A stretch of 64,000 nt of DNA, from the NCBI RefSeq assembly GCF_011058255.1, contig NZ_JAALFH010000067.1, positions 555,724 through 619,723 of the forward strand, read 5' to 3'. Shown here in pieces: positions 26,617 through 35,621 of the stretch. The notes below the pieces were generated by a model. It did no database searches. It was not told the DNA's origin and worked only from the letters and a program-made list of their open reading frames with translations. Source of the stretch: Thioalkalivibrio sp. XN8. Lineage in GTDB: Bacteria; Pseudomonadota; Gammaproteobacteria; Steroidobacterales; XN24. Position numbers and translations under genes: made by a program. Each line of letters starts with the position of its first letter. Position 1 is the first letter of the stretch.

Positions 26617-28016
26617 GCCCGGCGCAGGCGCTCGAGCTCGATCATGTCGCCCGGCCCGGGCAACGTCACCCGGGCCCCGGCGGCGCGCCGGAGCTGCCGG
26701 CCCAGCGCCGCCCGCGCCTCGTCCTCGCCATGCACCAGCCACACCGGCGGCGAGCCGCGGATCGCCCGGTACCAGTCCACCAGGCCCTGCTGGTCGGCAT
26801 GCGCGGAAAACCCGCCGAGGGTATGGACGGTCGCCTTGACGCGGACCGGCTCGCCCCACAGCGACACGTAAGCGGCGCCGTCCACCAGCTTGCGGCCGGT
26901 CGTGCCACGTGCCTGGAAGCCGACGATGATCACGTGGGTGCGGGGTCGCCACAACAGGTTCTTGAGGTGGTGACGGACCCGCCCCCCCTCGCACATGCCG
27001 CTGGCCGCAATGATGACGAGGCCGGAGCGCGCCCGGTTCAGCGCCCGCGACTGCTGCGGCGTGCGGATCATCTCGAGCTTGGCGGCGAGCCGCAGGCCGG
27101 CCTCGCGCTGCAGCTGCAGCGTCTCCCGGTCGTAGAGCTCCTCGTGCTTCCCATAGACCTCCGTGGCCCGGATGGCCATCGGGCTGTCGAGGCATATGCG
27201 CCAGTGGTCGAGGCCCCAGTCGTCGTAGTGGCGGGCGAACTGGTACAGCAGCTCCTGCGTGCGGCCCACGGCGAAAGCCGGAATCAGGATGTTGCCGCCC
27301 TCGGCATGGGCAGCCGCGAACACCTCGCCCAGCTCAGCGATGCTGTCGTCGCGGGAGCGATGCAGCCGGTCGCCGTAGGTGGACTCCAGCAGCACGGCGT
27401 CGGCCTCCTCCACCACCGCCGGGTCACGCAGGATGGGCGTGCCGCGCAGGCCCAAATCACCCGAGAACACCACTTTCCGGCTGCGATCCTGTTCGCGCAA
27501 CCAAAGCTCCACGATAGCCGAGCCGAGGATATGGCCCGCGTCCCGCAGCCGGAGCTCGATGCCGGGCAGGATTTCCGTGCGCGCGTCGTAGGCGAGCGGC
27601 CTGAATTGCCGCAGCGCCCGCTCGGCATCGCGCATGGTGTAGAGCGGTTTGAGCCGGCGCAGGCCGCGCCGGGCCCGCTTGCGGTTCTCGGTCTCGCTGT
27701 CTTTTTCCTGCAGGTACGCAGCATCGCGCAGCATGATGTCGCACAGGTCGACCGTCGCGCGGTGGGTATAGATCGGGCCGTCATAGCCCGCCGCGACCAG
27801 CATTGGGATGCGTCCCGAATGATCGATGTGCGCGTGGCTGAGGACGACCGCATCCAGCGATCCGGCCGGCACCGGAAATGGCGCACGGTTGGCCTGGCGC
27901 GCGTCGTCGCCGCCCTGGACCAGGCCGCACTCGAGCAGGACGCGTCGCGCCCCGCATTCCAGCAGATAGCAGCTGCCGGTGACCCCGCCTACCGCGCCGT
28001 GAAAGCCAAGGCGCAT
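26613..28016 (-). CDS. Beta-CASP metallo-beta-lactamase-fold ribonuclease-like protein
   Basis: This 467-residue protein belongs to the MBL/beta-CASP family (RNA-processing exonuclease, YSH1-like). The metal motif HAHIDHSG has His61, His63, Asp65 and His66; later metal ligands are the His in RDAGHILGSA and the Asp in FSGDLG; the beta-CASP insert and the final motif TLGGFSAHADQQGLVDW are also present. Bacterial members are predicted to cut RNA, with few tested. It is the third gene of an operon behind two diheme cytochromes (9-base gap), an association without an obvious reason. Confidence 0.86.
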   Translation of the reverse strand: MRLGFHGAVGGVTGSCYLLECGARRVLLECGLVQGGDDARQANRAPFPVPAGSLDAVVLSHAHIDHSGRIPMLVAAGYDGPIYTHRATVDLCDIMLRDAAYLQEKDSETENRKRARRGLRRLKPLYTMRDAERALRQFRPLAYDARTEILPGIELRLRDAGHILGSAIVELWLREQDRSRKVVFSGDLGLRGTPILRDPAVVEEADAVLLESTYGDRLHRSRDDSIAELGEVFAAAHAEGGNILIPAFAVGRTQELLYQFARHYDDWGLDHWRICLDSPMAIRATEVYGKHEELYDRETLQLQREAGLRLAAKLEMIRTPQQSRALNRARSGLVIIAASGMCEGGRVRHHLKNLLWRPRTHVIIVGFQARGTTGRKLVDGAAYVSLWGEPVRVKATVHTLGGFSAHADQQGLVDWYRAIRGSPPVWLVHGEDEARAALGRQLRRAAGARVTLPGPGDMIELERLRRA

Positions 28017-28025
28017 CGAGCCGGC

Positions 28026-28664
28026 CTATTCGGCGGGCAGCGGCGCCGCGGCCGGACCCGAGTAGAACTCGGCCAGGGCGTCCAGCTGTTCCGGGGTGAA
28101 GCCCCGGATCGGTTCTTCCATGGCCGGGATGCCGATGACGCGGCGCCCCTGGTGGAAGTCCTCCAGCGCGGTACGCAGGTAGACCTTGCGCTGCCCGCGC
28201 AGCATGCTCGCGTCGTCCCGCGGGTCGGAGCCGAGCCGGGTGTGGCAGATCTCGCACTCCCGATCGTGCAGCTCGCGGCCGATCGCCGCCAGCTCTGCGT
28301 CATAAGGGTCCTGGTGCGGGGGAAACGGCTGCCCGCCGTACCAGTCGGCCAGCTCTTCCATCTGCTCGTCGTCCATGGCAGCGACGATGTCGCACATGCT
28401 CATGTCCGGACAGCGGCCGTCCTTCGAGCAGGCGGAGACCCGGCAGGGCCGGTAACCATCGCGATAGTCCGTCAGTGACGCCAGGATCACGCCTGCCGGC
28501 AGGCCATGGATCGTGGGGACGCCGAGGAAGGGGCTCGGGCCGGTGTCACCGTGACATACGCTGCAAAGCCCGATGATCGCGGGTGGCCCGTCCTCGTCCG
28601 CGCCGGCGGCCTGTGCCGCGAGCAGGCCAAGCAGGATCGCCCAACAATATCGCCCTGCTCGCAT
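28026..28664 (-). CDS. Diheme cytochrome c, with four-cysteine insertion
   Basis: This 212-residue exported protein (signal about 1-21) has two heme sites: CSVCH (Cys34, Cys37, His38) and CEICH (Cys137, Cys140, His141), in a cytochrome c4-like two-domain plan. Domain 1 contains an insertion with Cys74, Cys79, Cys85 and Cys91 (spacing X4, X5, X5) where the distal-ligand loop should lie; Met88 and Met90 are inside it. Domain 2 keeps a plausible distal Met (IPAME). The start follows GAGGGGAG. The paralogue at 28694-29308 has the same insertion. The partners are unknown; electron transfer in the periplasm is inferred. Confidence 0.85.
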   Translation of the reverse strand: MRAGRYCWAILLGLLAAQAAGADEDGPPAIIGLCSVCHGDTGPSPFLGVPTIHGLPAGVILASLTDYRDGYRPCRVSACSKDGRCPDMSMCDIVAAMDDEQMEELADWYGGQPFPPHQDPYDAELAAIGRELHDRECEICHTRLGSDPRDDASMLRGQRKVYLRTALEDFHQGRRVIGIPAMEEPIRGFTPEQLDALAEFYSGPAAAPLPAE

Positions 28665-28693
28665 CGGTCCACTCCCCTCGTTGGCGAACCTGG

Positions 28694-29308
28694 TCAGTCG
28701 CGCGGGCTGAGGTAGAACTCCACCAGCGCAGCCACCTCCTCCGCGGAAAGTTCCTGCAGCATCACGTGCATCTCGGCGACGGCGATGCGGCGTTCCTGAC
28801 GGAAGTCCCCGATAGCGTTGACCAGGTAGTCCCTGGGCTGCCCGCGCAGGATGCTGGCCTGGTCCTGGGGCCGGCTGCCGCCGCCCCCGTGGCAGTTCTC
28901 ACAGCGCGCGGCATGCAGCAGCGCACCACGCGCCGCCAGGCCCGGGTCGTACTCCTGCGGCAGCGGGACGTACTCGCGGCCGGCGTACCACTCCGCCAGC
29001 ACGGCGATGTCCTGATCCGAGAGCCCGGCGACGATGCTGCAGAAATCGAGCGGCGGGCAATCGGAGGGTTCGTCGCAGCCCGGCTTGCGGCAGGGGCGGA
29101 TGGTCGCGCGGTAATCGTACAAGGCGTTCTCGATCACCAGCTGGGGCATGCCGTGGATCGTGGGCACCCCCGGCAGGAGACTGGGCGCCTCGACGCCGTG
29201 GCAGGCGCTGCAGGACGCGGCCTGGGCCGGCGGATCGGCGGCGGGGAGCTCGGCAGCGCCGAGCAGCAGCACGGTGGCGGCAGCCACCAGAAGCGCGCTC
29301 CTGAACAT
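28694..29308 (-). CDS. Diheme cytochrome c, paralogue of the next gene
   Basis: This 204-residue exported protein (signal about 1-24) has hemes at CSACH (Cys33, Cys36, His37) and CENCH (Cys136, Cys139, His140). Domain 1 holds Cys73, Cys78, Cys84 and Cys90 with exactly the same X4, X5, X5 spacing as its neighbour, and no Met at the usual distal position, so the sixth ligand of heme 1 may be missing or replaced. Domain 2 has Met residues in VAEMHVML. The shared stretch GVPTIHG-P and the L-SD--I-LAEWY helix show recent common origin. The start follows AAGGAG; the gene leads an operon with 28026-28664 and the metallo-hydrolase. Confidence 0.85.
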   Translation of the reverse strand: MFRSALLVAAATVLLLGAAELPAADPPAQAASCSACHGVEAPSLLPGVPTIHGMPQLVIENALYDYRATIRPCRKPGCDEPSDCPPLDFCSIVAGLSDQDIAVLAEWYAGREYVPLPQEYDPGLAARGALLHAARCENCHGGGGSRPQDQASILRGQPRDYLVNAIGDFRQERRIAVAEMHVMLQELSAEEVAALVEFYLSPRD

Positions 29309-29357
29309 GAGCCTTCTCCTTGTGACAAGCCGAAAATATCACAGCGGGAAGGGTCGT

Positions 29358-29374
29358 GCTCGGCGGCTCCGAGC
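29358..29374 (-). terminator. Hairpin downstream of tRNA-Arg
   Basis: On the minus strand GCTCGG-AGCCG-CCGAGC forms a 6-bp stem five bases after the tRNA-Arg CCA end. There is no T-run, so intrinsic termination is doubtful; it may act in 3' processing of the tRNA transcript or mark its end. Confidence 0.35.
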
Positions 29375-29378
29375 AAGG

Positions 29379-29454
29379 TGGCGCCCCGGGCAGGAATCGA
29401 ACCTGCGACCTACCGCTTAGGAGGCGGTCGCTCTATCCCCTGAGCTACCGGGGC
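29379..29454 (-). tRNA. tRNA-Arg (CCT)
   Basis: A full cloverleaf is visible on the minus strand: acceptor GCCCCGG/CCGGGGC, D-arm GCTC/GAGC, anticodon stem ACCGC/GCGGT with loop CTCCTAA (anticodon CCT), T-arm GCAGG-TTCGATT-CCTGC, discriminator G and encoded CCA. It reads the rare AGG codon. It lies 30 bases after tRNA-Ala and is probably cotranscribed with it. Confidence 0.97.
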
Positions 29455-29484
29455 ATGACTTGGCTAGCCGGGAATTGAGAAGTA

Positions 29485-29560
29485 TGGTGGAGCCGATCGG
29501 AGTCGAACCGACGACCTCCTGGGTGCGATCCAGGCGCTCTCCCAACTGAGCTACGGCCCC
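29485..29560 (-). tRNA. tRNA-Ala (CGC)
   Basis: The minus strand folds as acceptor GGGGCCG/CGGCTCC (one G-U pair), D-arm GCTC/GAGC, anticodon stem CCTGG/CCAGG with loop ATCGCAC (anticodon CGC), T-arm GTCGG-TTCGACT-CCGAT, discriminator A and encoded CCA. The CGC isoacceptor reads GCG, a very frequent codon in this GC-rich genome. It is the first gene of a two-tRNA unit. Confidence 0.96.
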
Positions 29561-29574
29561 ACGAGAAGCCGAGA

Positions 29575-29604
29575 ATTCTATTGCATGGACATACTCGTTC
29601 GCAA
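29575..29604 (-). promoter_or_regulatory. Candidate promoter of the tRNA-Ala/tRNA-Arg unit
   Basis: TTGCGA (29599-29604) and TAGAAT (29575-29580), read on the minus strand, are spaced by 18 bases, and the -10 ends 14 bases before the tRNA-Ala 5' end. The -35 and part of the spacer lie inside the first codons of the divergent GNAT gene. Confidence 0.5.
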
Positions 29605-30058
29605 TGCCGAGGCGACCGACTGGGCGACGATCGCCGAATTCAACCGCGCCTTGGCCGCCGAGACCGAGGACAAGGCCCTCGACTGGGCAGTGCTGAGCGC
29701 CGGCGTCCGCCGCCTGCTCGCGGACCCGGCCAAGGGTCGCTACTTCGTCGCCGAGACCGGCGGCCGGATCGTCGGCACCACCATGATCACCTACGAGTGG
29801 AGTGACTGGCGGGACGGCTGGATCTGGTGGATCCAGAGCGTCTACGTCCATCCCGACCTGCGCGGCCGCGGCGTCTTCGGCCGGCTGTACCGTCATGTCG
29901 TGGGGCTGGCCGATAGCGAGAATGTGCGCGCCGTGCGTCTGTACGTACTGAAGAGCAACGAGCGGGCGCGCGCTACTTACCTCAAGCTGGGCATGCAAGA
30001 GACCGGCTACACCGTCCTGGAAGCTGGGGACAGTCCCCAGGGAGCGAACGATGCTTGA
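29585..30058 (+). CDS. GNAT-family N-acetyltransferase
   Basis: This 157-residue protein has the GNAT fold: WWIQSVYVHPDLRGRGVFGRLY contains motif A with the acetyl-CoA loop RGRGVFG, and RLYVLKSNERARATYLKLGM is motif B. The substrate is unknown. The C-terminal codons include a 17-base palindrome (30024-30040) that encodes GDSP, suggesting a repeat inserted at the end of the gene. It overlaps bcp by 8 bases, so the two are coupled. Confidence 0.88.
   Translation: MDILVRNAEATDWATIAEFNRALAAETEDKALDWAVLSAGVRRLLADPAKGRYFVAETGGRIVGTTMITYEWSDWRDGWIWWIQSVYVHPDLRGRGVFGRLYRHVVGLADSENVRAVRLYVLKSNERARATYLKLGMQETGYTVLEAGDSPQGANDA
30024..30040. repeat. Palindrome CTGGGGACAGTCCCCAG in the GNAT gene
   Basis: This perfect 17-base palindrome centred on one A lies in the last codons of the GNAT gene. 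The core GGGGACAGTCCC occurs twice in tandem inside rarA (47217-47241). I recall this core as a dispersed palindromic repeat in proteobacterial genomes, but I cannot confirm it here. Confidence 0.7.
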
Positions 30059-30515
30059 CCGTGGCGACCGCGCCCCCGATTTCACCCTCCCCGACCAGGA
30101 CGGCCGCGAGGTTTCCTTCCACGCCCTGCTGCGCGAGGGACCCGTGGTGCTCTATTTTTACCCGGCGGACTTCACGCCCGGCTGCACCAAGGAGGCCTGC
30201 TCGATCCGCGACATGCACGACGAGATCGCCGCCGCCGGGATGCGGGTGGTCGGCGTCAGCCCGCAGGACGCGGACAGCCACGCGCGCTTCCGCGACAAGC
30301 ATGGCCTGCCCTTCACGCTGGTGGCCGATCCGGACAAGGTCGCGGTCAAGGCCTACGGCGTCGACGGCCCGCTCGGCATCGGCGTCCGGCGCGCCACCTT
30401 CCTGATCGGGCCGGACGGAGTGATCCGCGACGCGGTCGTGGCCGATCTGCGGGTCGGGCGCCACGAGGATTTCATCCGCCGGGCGATCGCGGCGGCGGGC
30501 CAGTCAGGCACCTGA
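30051..30515 (+). CDS. bcp: Thioredoxin-dependent thiol peroxidase (BCP type)
   Basis: This 154-residue peroxiredoxin reduces hydroperoxides. The peroxidatic Cys45 lies in YPADFTPGCTKEAC and Cys50, five residues later, is the resolving cysteine of the atypical two-Cys BCP type. The arginine of the active site is in GVRRATFLIGPDG. The length matches the family. It starts inside the GNAT gene and its end overlaps the convergent chrA gene by 12 bases. Confidence 0.92.
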   Translation: MLDRGDRAPDFTLPDQDGREVSFHALLREGPVVLYFYPADFTPGCTKEACSIRDMHDEIAAAGMRVVGVSPQDADSHARFRDKHGLPFTLVADPDKVAVKAYGVDGPLGIGVRRATFLIGPDGVIRDAVVADLRVGRHEDFIRRAIAAAGQSGT

Positions 30516-31793
30516 AAGACTCAGCACGACGCCCGCCCCGACCGCCAGCCCCAGCACCGCCAGCATGCTCCAGCCGCGCCAGGCCAGCAGCGCCAGCGCC
30601 ACCACCGCAAAGGCGAGCGCCGCGAGGTCCAGCGTGGCGGGATCCGGGAGCAGCAGGCGGACGGGACCCGCATACGAGGCCTCGATGCTGCGGAACAGCA
30701 CGTGCAGCCCGAACCACAGCGACAGGTTCAGCACCGCGCCGACCACCGCCGCGCCGACACCGGCCATCGCCCCGGCCAGCCGCGGCTGGTAGAGGAGCCG
30801 CTCGATCCACGGCGCCCCGGTGAAGACCCAGAGGAAACACGGGACGAAAGTCACCCAGGTGGCCACGATACTGGCCAGGAGCCCGGCCAGCAGCGGGTCG
30901 AAGGGCACAGCGTCGCGCCAGGCGGCGAGAAAAGCCACGAACTGCAATACCTGGATCAGCGGTCCCGGGGTGGTCTCGGCCAGCCCGAGCCCGTCCACCA
31001 TCTCGGCAGGGCTGAGCCAGCCCTGTGCCTCGACCGCATGCTGGGCGACGTAGGCCAGCACCGCGTAGGCGCCGCCGAAACTCACCACCGCCACCTGGCT
31101 GAAGAACAGGCCGACCTGGCTCAGCACATGGGCGGGCCCCAGCCAGAAGACGATCATCCCGAGGGGCAGGAACCAGGCCGCCAGTCCGACCGCCGCAGTG
31201 GCGGCCGACCGCCGGATCCCGCCGGGGGATGCCGCCGGCGCGGGCGGGGCCTGCCGGCCCCGCACCTGCCACAGGCCCAGCGCCGCCGCAGCGAGAATCA
31301 CCAGCGGGAACGGCAGCCGCAGGAAGAACATCGCGACGAAGGCCCCGAGGGCGATGGCAACGCGAAACCCGTCGCGAAGTATCCGCCGGCGCAGCTGGTT
31401 GACGGCCACCAGCACGATCGCGAGGACGGCGGCCTGCAGGCCGAACAGCATCCCCGCGACGGCCGGCGTGTCGCCGAGCAGCACGTAGACATAGGACAGC
31501 GCCAGGATCGAGAGAAAGCCCGGCAGGACAAACAGCGTGCCGGCGATCAGCCCGCCCCGCAGCCCGTGCGTCATCCAGCCGACGTAGGTCGCCAGCTGCA
31601 TCGCTTCCGGGCCGGGCAGCAGCATGCAGAAGTTGAGCGCATTGAGGAACCGCCGCTCGTCGATCCAGCCCTTCTCCTCCACCAGCACGCGGTGCATCAC
31701 GGCGATCTGGGCCGCCGGCCCGCCGAAAGACAGCAGGGCGATGCGGGTCCAGGCCCACAGGGCCTCGCCGAAGGCCGGCGCGGGCTGGCTCAA
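30504..31793 (-). CDS. chrA: Chromate transporter ChrA (long, two-domain)
   Basis: This 429-residue inner-membrane protein belongs to the CHR family that exports chromate. Two homologous halves each begin with a conserved motif: LLSFGGPAAQIAVMHR (first half) and VVSFGGAYAVLAYVAQ (second half), each with PGP (MLLPGPEAMQLATYVG and TTPGPLIQVLQFVAF). About ten membrane segments are apparent. The start is TTG 31793, overlapping the yjbQ stop as TTGA; no ATG or GTG lies between it and the first conserved motif. Actual chromate resistance is not proved by sequence. Confidence 0.93.
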   Translation of the reverse strand: MSQPAPAFGEALWAWTRIALLSFGGPAAQIAVMHRVLVEEKGWIDERRFLNALNFCMLLPGPEAMQLATYVGWMTHGLRGGLIAGTLFVLPGFLSILALSYVYVLLGDTPAVAGMLFGLQAAVLAIVLVAVNQLRRRILRDGFRVAIALGAFVAMFFLRLPFPLVILAAAALGLWQVRGRQAPPAPAASPGGIRRSAATAAVGLAAWFLPLGMIVFWLGPAHVLSQVGLFFSQVAVVSFGGAYAVLAYVAQHAVEAQGWLSPAEMVDGLGLAETTPGPLIQVLQFVAFLAAWRDAVPFDPLLAGLLASIVATWVTFVPCFLWVFTGAPWIERLLYQPRLAGAMAGVGAAVVGAVLNLSLWFGLHVLFRSIEASYAGPVRLLLPDPATLDLAALAFAVVALALLAWRGWSMLAVLGLAVGAGVVLSLSGA

Positions 31794-32203
31794 GCGCCTT
31801 GCACCGTGACCGTGATGCGGCGGCGGTGCGGAGCGTGCCGGTGCTCGTAGAGATAGATTCCCTGCCAGGTGCCCAGGGCGAGCCGGCCGCCGGTCACCGG
31901 CACCGACAGACTGCAGCCGGTCAGCATGCTCCGGACATGCGCCGGCATGTCGTCCGGGCCCTCGGCGTCGTGCTCGAATTCCGGGTCGCCGTCAGGCGCC
32001 AGTCGCGCCAGTACCCGCTCGAGATCGCGGTGCACCGCCGGGTCGGCGTTCTCGGTGATCAGCAGCGAGGCGCTGGTATGGTGGACGAAGACATGTGCGA
32101 TCCCGGTGCTGACGGCCGCCTCCCGCGCCGCCTCGGTGACCTGGCCGGTGAGCTCCAGCAGCCCGCGGCCGCGGGTGGCGATCTCGTAACTGGCCTGGTA
32201 CAT
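31790..32203 (-). CDS. YjbQ/UPF0047-family protein
   Basis: This 137-residue protein belongs to the YjbQ (UPF0047) family, some members of which have weak thiamin phosphate synthase activity. The signature GIAHVFVHHTSASLLITENADPAV-type segment holds the conserved His pair and Asn. The start ATG 32203 follows GGGAGGGG; an in-frame extension to 32236 lacks such a site. The last bases overlap chrA as TTGA, so it is coupled to the transporter. Confidence 0.88.
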   Translation of the reverse strand: MYQASYEIATRGRGLLELTGQVTEAAREAAVSTGIAHVFVHHTSASLLITENADPAVHRDLERVLARLAPDGDPEFEHDAEGPDDMPAHVRSMLTGCSLSVPVTGGRLALGTWQGIYLYEHRHAPHRRRITVTVQGA

Positions 32204-32337
32204 CGCGCCCCTCCCAGTGCGGCTGCCGGAAGCCATCAGTGTAGCGTCCGGCTGGGCTGCCTTGGGAAAACCCGCATGGCCGCGCCGGCGCCCGCAGGGC
32301 AGGATGGAAACATGGGGAAATCTATGGAGACGCCGGC

Positions 32338-32889
32338 ATGACTTCCGTACTCGTGCTGTACATGAGCCAGGGGGGACACACCGCCCGCATCGCCCGCCGC
32401 ATCTGCGAGAGCATCGAGCGGACCGGCGCCAAGGCCGACATGATGAACCTGGTCGAAGCCACCAAGGAAGGCGTGGACTGGGCCAGGTATGACGTGGTCG
32501 CCTTCGGCGCGCCGGTCTACTACGGCACCTACCAGAAGCCGGTGTTCGAATTCATCGAGGATCACAAGGCGGAACTGGCGGCCAAGCCCAACAGCTTCTT
32601 CAACGTCTCGGTCGTCGCCCGCACGCCGGAGAAGGCGACGGTCGAGGGCAACCGCTACATGCAGAAGTTCCTCGAGCTCTCGCCCTGGAAACCCAGGGAC
32701 CTGAAGGTCATCGCCGGCAAGGTGGACTACCCGTCGTGGGGCTGGCTGGACACGATCATGATCCAGATGATCATGAAATTCACCAACGGCCCCACCGACC
32801 GCAAGACCGTGATCGATTACACCGACTGGGACGACGTGGCGGAATACGGGCGGCACCTGCTGACCCTCGCCAACCAGGCTCAGGCGTAA
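32338..32889 (+). CDS. hemG: Protoporphyrinogen IX dehydrogenase (flavodoxin-like)
   Basis: This 183-residue flavodoxin-fold protein resembles E. coli HemG, which oxidises protoporphyrinogen IX using quinone. Shared features are the FMN loop SQGGHTARIA near the start, GAPVYYGTYQ (HemG: GASIRYGHYH), VVARTPEKATVEGN with NRYMQKFL, KVIAGKVDYPSWGWLDTIMIQMIMKF and VIDYTDWDDVAEYGR, including the long insertion loop absent from ordinary flavodoxins. It overlaps the convergent transporter gene by 10 bases. The call is by alignment from memory. Confidence 0.9.
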   Translation: MTSVLVLYMSQGGHTARIARRICESIERTGAKADMMNLVEATKEGVDWARYDVVAFGAPVYYGTYQKPVFEFIEDHKAELAAKPNSFFNVSVVARTPEKATVEGNRYMQKFLELSPWKPRDLKVIAGKVDYPSWGWLDTIMIQMIMKFTNGPTDRKTVIDYTDWDDVAEYGRHLLTLANQAQA

Positions 32890-34247
32890 CCGATCCGCAC
32901 CGCGACCACGAGGGCCAGCGCGCCCGCCGCCATCAGCTTCAGGAACAGCGGCCAGGCGAAACGCATCCAGCGGTCGTAGGGCACGCCGACGACCCCGAGG
33001 ATCGCCATCAGCACCACGTTGGTCGGCACCACCAGGTTCGCGAAGCCATCCCCGAACTGGAAGGCCAGCACGGCCACCTGGCGGCTCACGCCTACGAGGT
33101 CGCCCACCGGCGCCATGATCGGCATGGTGACGAAGGCCTGGCCGCTGCCGGACGGCACGAAGAGATTGATCACGGCCTGCACCAGCATCATGCCGACGGC
33201 GGACAGCTCCGGGCCGAGCTGCTGCAGCGGCAGCGAGATACCGTGCACGATGGTATGCAGCACCCGGCCGTCTTCGAGAATGACCCCGATGCCGCGGGCG
33301 AAACCGACCAGCAGCGCCACTACGGCCAGCGATGCAGCGCCGGCCGCGAAGTTCCGGGCCGTCCCGTCGGCGCCGAGTCGGCCGAGCACCCCCGCCGCCA
33401 GCGCGAGGCCCAGCCACACGCCGCCCACTTCCACCAGGTACCAGCCCCGCGCCAGGATGCCGTAGACCATGCCGCCCAGGGCCAGCGCCGTGAGCCCGAG
33501 GATCGCCCAGTGGCGTGGCTCGACCGGCGGATAGGCCGGCGGCGGCGCCGGCTGCGCCTCCGGGATGTCGGCCACCAGGCTGTCGGCCGGCGCCCGGCGC
33601 ACCCGCTGGGCGTAGCGCCAGGTGTGGTGGACGCCGATGGCCACGAAGGGGAGGAACAGGGCCAGGCGATAGCCGATGCCCGAGGCCGGCGGCAGCTCCG
33701 CGATCCCCTGGGCGACGAGCACGGTGTAGGGATTGAGGGCCGCCACGCCGTAGCCGATGCAGTAGCCGCCGATCATGATTCCCATGGCCGTCATGGCATC
33801 CAGGCGCATGGCCACGCACAGGGCCACCAGCATGGCGGCGAAGGGGATGTACTCGGTGGATACGCCGAGCGTGCCCGAGCCGAGCGCGAACAGCGCCAGC
33901 CCGATGCCGATGAGCAGCGCCGGGCTGTGGCCGATGCGCCGCAGGATGGCGCCCAGCAGGGCGTCCATGGCGCCCGTCGCCTGCAGCACCGCGATCGTCC
34001 CGCCGACGATGAAGAGGAAAAAGATGATCACCTGGGCATCGGCCAGGGCCCGCGGCACGGCGGTGAAGATGGCCCAGGGCGGCAGCCAGACGCGCTCCTC
34101 GGCGAGCGTGAAGGTTCCCGGGACGACCATTGCCCGGCCCTGGTCGTTCAGCGCGGTCGCGAACTCGCCCTGCGGCAGCGTCCAGGTCATCACCAGCGCC
34201 AGCACCATCATCGCGAACAGCAGCGCGAGGGTATGGGGCACGCGCAT
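32880..34247 (-). CDS. YfcC-family membrane transporter
   Basis: This 455-residue protein has about 11-12 membrane segments and the YfcC/DcuC-like pattern: VIIFFLFIVGGTIAVLQATGAMDALL, GSGTLGVSTEYIPFAAML, NPYTVLVAQGIAELPPASG, and LFVPSGSGQAFVTMPIMAPVGDLVGVSRQ. Substrates of the family are poorly known; organic acids or peptides are suggested. The start at 34247 lies 2 bases after the histidine phosphatase stop; a 59-codon upstream extension overlaps that gene out of frame and is rejected. Confidence 0.88.
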   Translation of the reverse strand: MRVPHTLALLFAMMVLALVMTWTLPQGEFATALNDQGRAMVVPGTFTLAEERVWLPPWAIFTAVPRALADAQVIIFFLFIVGGTIAVLQATGAMDALLGAILRRIGHSPALLIGIGLALFALGSGTLGVSTEYIPFAAMLVALCVAMRLDAMTAMGIMIGGYCIGYGVAALNPYTVLVAQGIAELPPASGIGYRLALFLPFVAIGVHHTWRYAQRVRRAPADSLVADIPEAQPAPPPAYPPVEPRHWAILGLTALALGGMVYGILARGWYLVEVGGVWLGLALAAGVLGRLGADGTARNFAAGAASLAVVALLVGFARGIGVILEDGRVLHTIVHGISLPLQQLGPELSAVGMMLVQAVINLFVPSGSGQAFVTMPIMAPVGDLVGVSRQVAVLAFQFGDGFANLVVPTNVVLMAILGVVGVPYDRWMRFAWPLFLKLMAAGALALVVAVRIGYA

Positions 34248-35254: not shown

Positions 35255-35284
35255 TTGCAGCGGCCCCGGGCACCCATGGACAAT
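35255..35284 (+). promoter_or_regulatory. Candidate tRNA-Ser promoter
   Basis: TTGCAG (35255-35260) and GACAAT (35279-35284) are spaced by 18 bases and end 9 bases before the tRNA 5' end. Each box matches four of six consensus bases. Confidence 0.38.
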
Positions 35285-35293
35285 GCCGCCCTC

Positions 35294-35383
35294 GGAGAGG
35301 TGGCAGAGCGGTTGAATGCACCGGTCTTGAAAACCGGCAAGGTGGCGACACCTTCGAGGGTTCGAATCCCTCCCTCTCCGCCA
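35294..35383 (+). tRNA. tRNA-Ser (TGA)
   Basis: This 90-base class II tRNA has acceptor GGAGAGG/CCTCTCC, an anticodon stem CCGGT/ACCGG with loop CTTGAAA (anticodon TGA), a long variable arm (GGTGGCGACACC), T-arm GAGGG-TTCGAAT-CCCTC, discriminator G and encoded CCA. The bases after it repeat its 3' end twice (see repeat units). Confidence 0.96.
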
Positions 35384-35492
35384 CCCCAGAGCCACGGGGC
35401 TAGCCAGGATTCGAACCCTCGAAGTAATGAATGATGGGTTCGAAGCCGAAGGCGGCGGTGCGAAGCGCCGCCTCATCCCTCCCTCTCCGCCA
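35384..35492 (+). repeat. tRNA-Ser-derived repeat, unit 1 (109 bases)
   Basis: The unit ends with an exact copy (35475-35492) of the last 18 bases of tRNA-Ser, ATCCCTCCCTCTCCGCCA. It also holds, at 35407-35424, an exact inverted copy of tRNA bases 35352-35369 (GGATTCGAACCCTCGAAG), and at 35436-35444 GGGTTCGAA, which can pair with it. A hairpin GGCGGCG/CGCCGCC (35451-35472) precedes the tRNA end copy. A CCCC/GGGG mini-stem opens the unit. The parts needed for a whole tRNA are missing, so it is not a tRNA gene. Confidence 0.88.
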
Positions 35493-35621
35493 GATTCCAA
35501 CCCCGTACCCGGCCGGGGATTCGAACCCCCGAACCAATAAATAGCGGGTTCGAAATCGGAGCCGGCGCCCGCCGGCGGAGATGCCGTCCCGCAGGGACGG
35601 CCCATCCCCCCCTCTCCGCCA
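35493..35621 (+). repeat. tRNA-Ser-derived repeat, unit 2 (129 bases)
   Basis: This unit has the same plan as unit 1: a CCCC/GGGG mini-stem, GGATTCGAACCC (35517-35528), an AT-rich loop with AATAAAT, GGGTTCGAA (35546-35554), hairpins, and at 35604-35621 the tRNA-Ser 3' end with one change (ATCCCCCCCTCTCCGCCA). It carries two hairpins, GCCGGC/GCCGGC (35561-35576) and GCCGTCCC/GGGACGGC (35583-35601); the extra one accounts for its greater length. Confidence 0.86.

Follow-up and report, generated by a model that had tools for sequence, protein, structure and literature searches.

The two repeat units that directly follow the tRNA-Ser(UGA) gene, on the same strand (35384-35621), in the 64-kb window (the whole stretch of DNA analyzed here) belong, in shortened form, to a class already described, the tRNA-linked repeats (TLRs) or RtT repeats. 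Each unit is made up of a trailer, the T-arm of the parent in inverted copy, the 5' half of the T-arm once more, an interior of hairpins in the position of the T-loop, and the T-arm 3' half with the acceptor 3' strand and CCA. In other genomes, the inverted copy takes in part of the acceptor stem as well. The class stands behind tRNA, tmRNA, and rRNA genes of many gammaproteobacterial lineages, and in most units the arms match the host tRNA. As to its origin, we consider it fairly probable that a hairpin module entered the T-loop of a duplicated tRNA piece and that the array then formed by local tandem duplication.

The layout of the array is given in Table 1. The lengths of both units, and the recurrence of the last 18 nucleotides of the tRNA at their ends, exactly in one and with a single change in the other, had been described correctly in the original prediction. 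The window contains no further copy of this 18-nt sequence on either strand when up to 2 mismatches are allowed. Not one of 2,000 dinucleotide shuffles of the downstream 400 nt yielded a copy with 1 mismatch or less, and a chance origin of the copies was rejected. The common inner plan that had been proposed for the two units also held, and could be refined. Each unit has an inverted T-arm, an A-rich spacer, GGGTTCGAA, and GC-rich hairpins, and the sequence GGATTCGAACCCTCGAAG in unit 1 is the inverted T-arm, taking in the end of the variable arm; the corresponding arm of unit 2 has 2 mismatches to the reverse complement of the tRNA. The stretch from 35517 to 35621 in unit 2 is 89% identical to the stretch behind tRNA-Ser(CGA) in the same genome. 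Predicted folds of the two units gave z values of -2.10 and -2.41 on the tRNA strand and -0.84 and -2.03 on the other strand, only modestly better than shuffled sequence, so folding alone is weak evidence. Neither a sigma-70-like promoter nor an intrinsic-terminator-like site was found between 35150 and 36000. The reverse strand was also considered as a tRNA-like RNA and rejected, as Rfam scores were weak (for example, 18.3 bits for tRNA-Sec). Separately, the Rfam families sX4 (sense, 35282-35463) and RF04351 (antisense, 35329-35380) gave below-cutoff scores on the window tRNA-Ser; both families seem to include tRNA-Ser-like sequence.

Table 1. Features of the tRNA-Ser(UGA) repeat array, in window coordinates
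Feature	Position	Strand	Evidence
tRNA-Ser(UGA), parent of the repeats	35294..35383	+	ARAGORN; Rfam tRNA, 61.9 bits
Unit 1, 109 nt	35384..35492	+	Closed by exact 18-nt tRNA end; R1, 33.1 bits at 35397-35492
Unit 1, inverted T-arm	35407..35424	+	Sequence comparison; 18/18 reverse complement of 35352-35369
Unit 1, copy of T-arm 5' half, GGGTTCGAA	35436..35444	+	Sequence; can pair with inverted arm in predicted fold
Unit 1, shortened hairpin interior at T-loop position	35445..35474	+	Predicted fold; no R2 match
Unit 1, closing tRNA 3'-end copy	35475..35492	+	Sequence comparison, 18/18
Unit 2, 129 nt	35493..35621	+	R1, 34.8 bits at 35507-35621
Unit 2, inverted T-arm	35517..35534	+	Fits tRNA-Ser(UGA) of sister species G002, together with the 3' end, better than own tRNA
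Unit 2, two-hairpin interior	35555..35603	+	No R2 match
Unit 2, closing tRNA 3'-end copy	35604..35621	+	Sequence comparison, 17/18

Examination of the 3' flanks of all tRNA genes, a check that had been proposed along with the original prediction, found the arrangement elsewhere in this genome and in many others. The Rfam tRNA model marked 42 places in this genome, and ARAGORN reads 42 tRNA genes in the stretches around them. Six of the 42 genes (Ser-TGA, Ser-CGA, Ser-GCT, Ser-GGA, Gly-CCC, and Arg-CCG) are followed within 700 nt by their own final 18 nt, with 3 mismatches at most; the other 36 are not. A tmRNA gene carries a unit too. Several arrays of this genome hold runs of N, which makes copy numbers uncertain there. 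Among the 36 genes without units is tRNA-Arg(ACG), from which an array has been displaced by a 6,558-bp element with an integrase gene (PF00589) and 53-bp direct repeats that start at the anticodon stem; the array sits beyond the far repeat of this island. In the sister species G002 the array is directly 3' of tRNA-Arg(ACG), and in a second sister, G001, it is in the same place in degraded form. The Ser-TGA array is likewise degraded in G001. The island itself (L423, contig C38, positions 27120 to 33754, 6.56 kb) encodes an AAA ATPase and DUF4276 pair resembling HEC-01A/B and a NOV_C protein resembling PDC-S36, both of them candidate anti-phage systems by PADLOC.

BLAST and pattern searches located units 3' of tRNA-Ser genes in both sister species and in further families of the order. 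A BLAST search with the array matched 24 of 59 genomes, many of the matches covering the tRNA end only, and four other genomes of the family, with no BLAST match at the array, were reached solely by the covariance model R1 described below (R1 matches of about 53 nt represent the tRNA arms alone). The Rfam model RF00391 (RtT), at E values up to 1, matched 5 of 14 loci, with 132.9 to 137.5 bits in E. coli. Scores above its cutoff were obtained for tRNA-Ser units of three relatives in the order, namely L014 (71.5 bits), L006 (64.8 bits), and L005 (48.8 and 48.2 bits), and a fourth, L004, scored 38.2 bits, below the cutoff. The nine loci without a match at this E value included four from this genus, the Gly-CCC, Arg-CCG, and Ser-GCT loci of this genome among them. 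Across the class, RtT at E values up to 0.001 matched 65 of 369 genomes, 23 of them above the cutoff, and this genome was not represented, both statements applying to the matches listed; in the named controls, one of 14 genomes matched, that of E. coli. The class-wide list was made with stricter filters, and one match group (G627:C18) was left out of the loci that were read.

The 106 loci around RtT matches divided into 78 with a tRNA whose last 18 nt recur downstream (3 mismatches at most), 13 with a tRNA and no recurrence, and 15 without a tRNA. Eighty tRNAs showed the recurrence, 67 of them exactly: 34 Ser, 27 Gln, 7 Tyr, 7 Arg, 2 Thr, 2 Glu, and 1 Val, the two Thr cases having 2 and 3 mismatches. 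Over all searches outside this genome, units stand behind tRNAs for Ser, Gln, Tyr, Arg, Glu, Lys, Pro, Met, and Val. A pattern scan of named genomes gave at least 119 stretches, and the matches listed include Enterobacter, Citrobacter, Pantoea, Serratia, Yersinia, Photorhabdus, Alteromonas, Rheinheimera, Marinobacter, Thioalkalivibrio, and one Mariprofundus bin. Certain unit-pattern matches (for example, L075 and L080) lie away from any tRNA and look like chance. A unit was found in 4,680 of 5,426 E. coli genomes, at 1 to 9 places in each, and was missing at this sensitivity from 746. This variation in presence and number, together with a 160-bp Yersinia typing locus considered below, indicates that arrays change in number and can be lost. 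The prediction had called for a second genome or locus with the arrangement, and many tRNAs in many genomes supply it.

The arms of the units are matched to their own tRNA. This was assessed in 112 of 113 units, the one left out being a whole second tRNA-Tyr. When the segment before the 3' copy was compared with the reverse complement of tRNA 3' regions, the mean score was 13.5 with the unit's own tRNA, 8.2 with tRNAs for different amino acids, and 6.4 with shuffled sequence. The own tRNA exceeded the mean of the other amino acid types in 108 of the 112 units; in 94 it also outscored the best of those types, and 5 units were ties. An alignment of 48 diverse units had double-sided changes that keep the pair at 13 of the 18 pairs predicted, 5 of them in the helix of the inverted arm with the tRNA end and the other 8 within hairpins of the interior. 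Because tRNA sequence supplies one strand of the first helix, the pair changes show co-change and not, in themselves, RNA function. Within the window, the arms of unit 1 fit the tRNA beside them better than that of G002, and the arms of unit 2 have 0/18 and 2/20 mismatches to the G002 tRNA-Ser(UGA) versus 1/18 and 4/20 to their own. On this comparison, the distal unit 2 appears to be the older one or to derive from a G002-like relative. In 112 arrays, the last copy was worse than the first in 19, better in 4, and equal in 89, a gradient that is only suggestive because these arrays include tRNA operons with several identical tRNA genes.

Two class-wide covariance models, a further check that had been proposed, were built from units picked as clear cases. 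R1 describes the whole unit and was made from 48 units, none of them from this genus; R2 describes only the four-hairpin core. The window units scored 33.1 and 34.8 bits with R1, clearly above what the tRNA arms alone provide, as the window tRNA itself scored 17.2 bits; other tRNA-Ser genes alone reached up to 27.0 bits. R2, at E values up to 1, gave no match to the four-hairpin core on the window array. In the same genome, R2 does match the Gly-CCC unit and a D-loop copy before Ser-GCT, and by reading, the first hairpin of unit 2 resembles the core subtype of two order relatives (L004 and L082). The interiors in the window are probably reduced canonical cores.

The canonical core also occurs in places where the arms of the unit are absent. 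With R2 at E values up to 1e-4, at least 124 of 321 class genomes were matched (14 candidates were scored per genome). We tabulated 78 of 84 hits, most of them 3' of a tRNA; L396, L398, L399, L400, and the second copies in L371 and L389 were left out as re-fetched or identical tandem sequence. In five loci (L022, from this genome, L342, L366, L391, and L403), the module sits in the D-loop of a partial tRNA-Ser-GCT copy that closely precedes the intact gene; in four (L350, with two modules, L357, L366, and L385), it sits in the T-loop of an upstream tRNA copy, and in L344 in a degenerate tRNA-Arg. In L418 it occupies the T-loop of a tRNA copy that, in its 5' part as far as this loop, is the same as the intact gene. 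The copy in this genome (L022, 1465-1645) reads as an extra tRNA-Ser with the module in the D-loop and a small hairpin at the T-loop, and it is absent in both sisters, G001 and G002. A module at L343 (475-546) lies within what reads as an IS91-type (Y2) transposase gene, both sides of which match the Y2_Tnp profile in order, the long side with 47.3 bits and the short side with 13.3 bits, below the Pfam cutoff of 20.9. A module at L345 (826-897), from another family, has flanks similar to those in L343, and its placement in such a gene was judged from these flanks. In genome G416 (L392 to L395), a dispersed repeat of 153 to 254 bp carries the module; the copies that were compared are 95 to 98% identical, and seven scattered places in this genome have nearly equal scores. 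Several R2 places have no tRNA in the stretch, and where no tRNA is listed, the module may in some cases be what is left of a decayed unit. Two modules in L402 (1095-1176 and 2063-2144) have conserved flanks and lie 968 nt apart, and one of them matches rsmX weakly (34.7 bits; cutoff, 56). The model also finds the argVYZQ region of E. coli, with three hits of 25.9 to 31.2 bits, and the space between the two terminators of E. coli rrnB T1-T2 (L421, 440-513), with 48.1 bits. The rrnB T1-T2 stretch is in wide use in cloning vectors. At 20 of 22 places outside downstream units, GA followed by C lies within an 18-nt segment around the start of the model, versus 19% of random windows; these places were hand-picked from the R2 table plus E. 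coli rrnB, and L393 and L394 were omitted as near copies of L392. Intact neighboring tRNA genes have the same GA followed by A, without a module.

These observations fit a history in which a small multi-hairpin module would enter the T-loop of a duplicated piece of a tRNA gene, after GA and before A, with invaded RNA gene copies surviving beside an intact one. Local tandem duplication would then enlarge the array, with the unit next to the tRNA as the younger one, and read-through RNA of a unit could take up a branched structure closed by a tRNA-like end. One of the alternatives raised in the original prediction, structured elements that spread with tRNA ends, agrees with the wider data. Against this history stand the R1 scores of 33 to 35 bits, of which about 17 come from the tRNA arms alone, and the silence of R2 in the window; neither a transposition event nor a responsible enzyme was seen. 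A broader proposal, which we hold tentatively and somewhat short of an even chance, is that the RtT/TLR core is a non-autonomous mobile module of about 70 to 85 nt with up to four hairpins. It would enter after GA and before A without target duplication and would strongly prefer the loops of genes for structured RNAs (T- and D-loops of tRNA, tmRNA, and 5S), also entering genes such as that of an IS91-type transposase. Duplicates of the invaded RNA gene would restore its function and leave TLRs behind, and in lineages that kept GGA loops the module would serve as a CsrA/RsmA-binding RNA. At places for which no empty counterpart is available, the GA that precedes the module could belong to it and not to the target. 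Mobility of the module, if real, would explain both an oddity described for E. coli in 1978 and the rrnB T1-T2 spacer. The origin of the repeats also becomes testable, through close relatives whose sites are filled in one and empty in another.

The same arrays might be selected RNAs, expressed by read-through from the tRNA promoter, that bind CsrA/RsmA or Hfq or engage tRNA-processing enzymes, an explanation that we regard as rather unlikely. The multi-hairpin consensus is conserved with pair-preserving changes, and covariation of RtT has been reported (PMC7657543, PMC8250186). In 97 tRNA-unit modules, GGA occurs in hairpin loops at a mean of 0.85 per module versus 0.37 in shuffled and 0.02 in antisense sequence, and in 17 modules outside downstream units at 2.18 versus 0.51 and 0, although the modules are related sequences and the shuffles therefore overstate significance. 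Two or more GGA loops are present in 33 of the 97. The data provide a list of units with CsrA-like loops for assay. The window units, however, have no GGA in their predicted hairpin loops. RtT-family RNAs were detected in Actinobacillus (PMC4986893), and the annotated RttR ends, by its sequence, at the CCA of the unit. The E. coli RNAs RrA, RrB, and RrF, which are TLRs after 5S, are described as CsrA and Hfq binders, but the same report gives CsrA-binding scores below 0.01 for the 19 E. coli TLRs in tRNA operons and records the retraction of a starvation-recovery claim for the tyrT TLR (PMC8144298). Selection also sits poorly with the E. coli genomes that lack a unit and the varying number of places in the others. 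In the pair table, G-U cells (22) do not outnumber A-C cells (28, or 14 without pairs 63-95 and 64-94), a comparison that favors neither strand. Terminator-like hairpins precede 48 of the 112 units, which argues against efficient co-transcription.

It is unlikely, in our estimation, that the arrays are simply neutral DNA. By that account, an inverted copy arose when replication switched templates at the palindromic T-loop TTCGAA, tandem duplication followed, and quasi-palindrome correction keeps the arms matched, with no mobile module and no function. The inverted arm of window unit 1, an exact reverse complement with the T-loop included, is what such switching would give, and the variable number of units, their absence in places, and the decay of the Ser-TGA array in G001 suit it as well. 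Left unexplained is the recurrence of one hairpin consensus after unrelated tRNAs and 5S, inside D-loops, and within a transposase gene. One exact pattern for an inverted-arm unit without an interior found none in the loci examined. Scars of integrase-driven integration at the tRNA T-loop, with repeated att cores, had been offered as another alternative and are very improbable. Direct repeats from the T-loop to CCA are found at many integration sites, and the repeats here span the same part of the tRNA; one viral contig (L331, 9960-12453) even carries the 3' half of a tRNA-Ser with four units behind it and an integrase gene after these. Yet an integrase-like open reading frame lay within up to 3.5 kb downstream on only 2 of 115 locus strands with units (by a crude regular expression, with some loci overlapping), and the core pattern was present in just two stretches of the viral collection. 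As had been noted beforehand, no integrase is nearby: integrase, transposase, and recombinase families were absent among the 10 neighboring window proteins, 2 of which matched no family. In place of an integrase and cargo between att repeats, there are units of only 109 and 129 nt. The real island at tRNA-Arg(ACG) differs from them, with its repeats from the anticodon stem, its 6.6 kb, its integrase gene, and an array beyond the far repeat. Site-specific integration alone, in addition, would not yield inverted arms matched to the unit's own tRNA.

Several described systems are close to the window array. The TLRs of E. coli number 22 copies at ten loci, they are described as a class with no known function, and their 3' end is identical over 18 to 19 bp to that of the gene just upstream (PMC8144298). 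Like the array studied here, they are located 3' of tRNA or rRNA genes, with 1 to 5 copies per locus (PMC8144298). They differ in that the parents here are four tRNA-Ser genes, Gly-CCC, Arg-CCG, and tmRNA, that the interiors behind the window tRNA are shortened to one or two hairpins, and that the inverted T-arm of window unit 1 is exact and starts 23 nt behind the tRNA. The analogy to the rtT repeats of tyrT, drawn in the original prediction, is borne out in plan, since the E. coli rtT units and the tyrT-tyrV spacer are built like the window units, with parts in the same order in Rfam RF00391 and rtT (RttR), and units of the three order relatives exceed the RF00391 cutoff; it does not extend to the score of the window units, which reach only 14.7 bits (E value, 3.6) at a cutoff of 45.

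Related sequences have been described in other settings. RtT-family RNAs were reported near tRNA-Asn and tRNA-Lys in Pasteurellaceae (PMC4986893), and in enterobacteria, sequences like rtT that precede gatY, rbfA, and cvpA were reported as candidate attenuators (PMC2965389). The L402 and L350 modules score 28.1 to 30.0 bits with the Aggregatibacter sRNA AaHKsRNA22 (RF02902), short of its cutoff of 39.8. Typing locus D of Yersinia enterocolitica is a 160-bp repeat in which we read the 3' end of a tRNA-Arg and a core like that of RtT (PMC7828411, Table 2); it is presented there as a tandem-repeat typing locus. The letters of the core appeared in the text of the open-access literature searched only in this typing table, and that literature showed no link of TLRs to D-loop or transposase insertions, nor to tRNA-Ser outside Enterobacteria. 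Within the literature searched, the breadth of the class, the inverted arm matched to its own tRNA, and the evidence for the canonical core outside arrays are new. RrA, RrB, and RrF after 5S, and the rrnB T1-T2 spacer, share the same core module, at 48.1 bits, and copy the 3' end of the upstream RNA gene as the window units do; they differ in having 5S rRNA as the parent and in the CsrA and Hfq binding reported for these three RNAs (PMC8144298).
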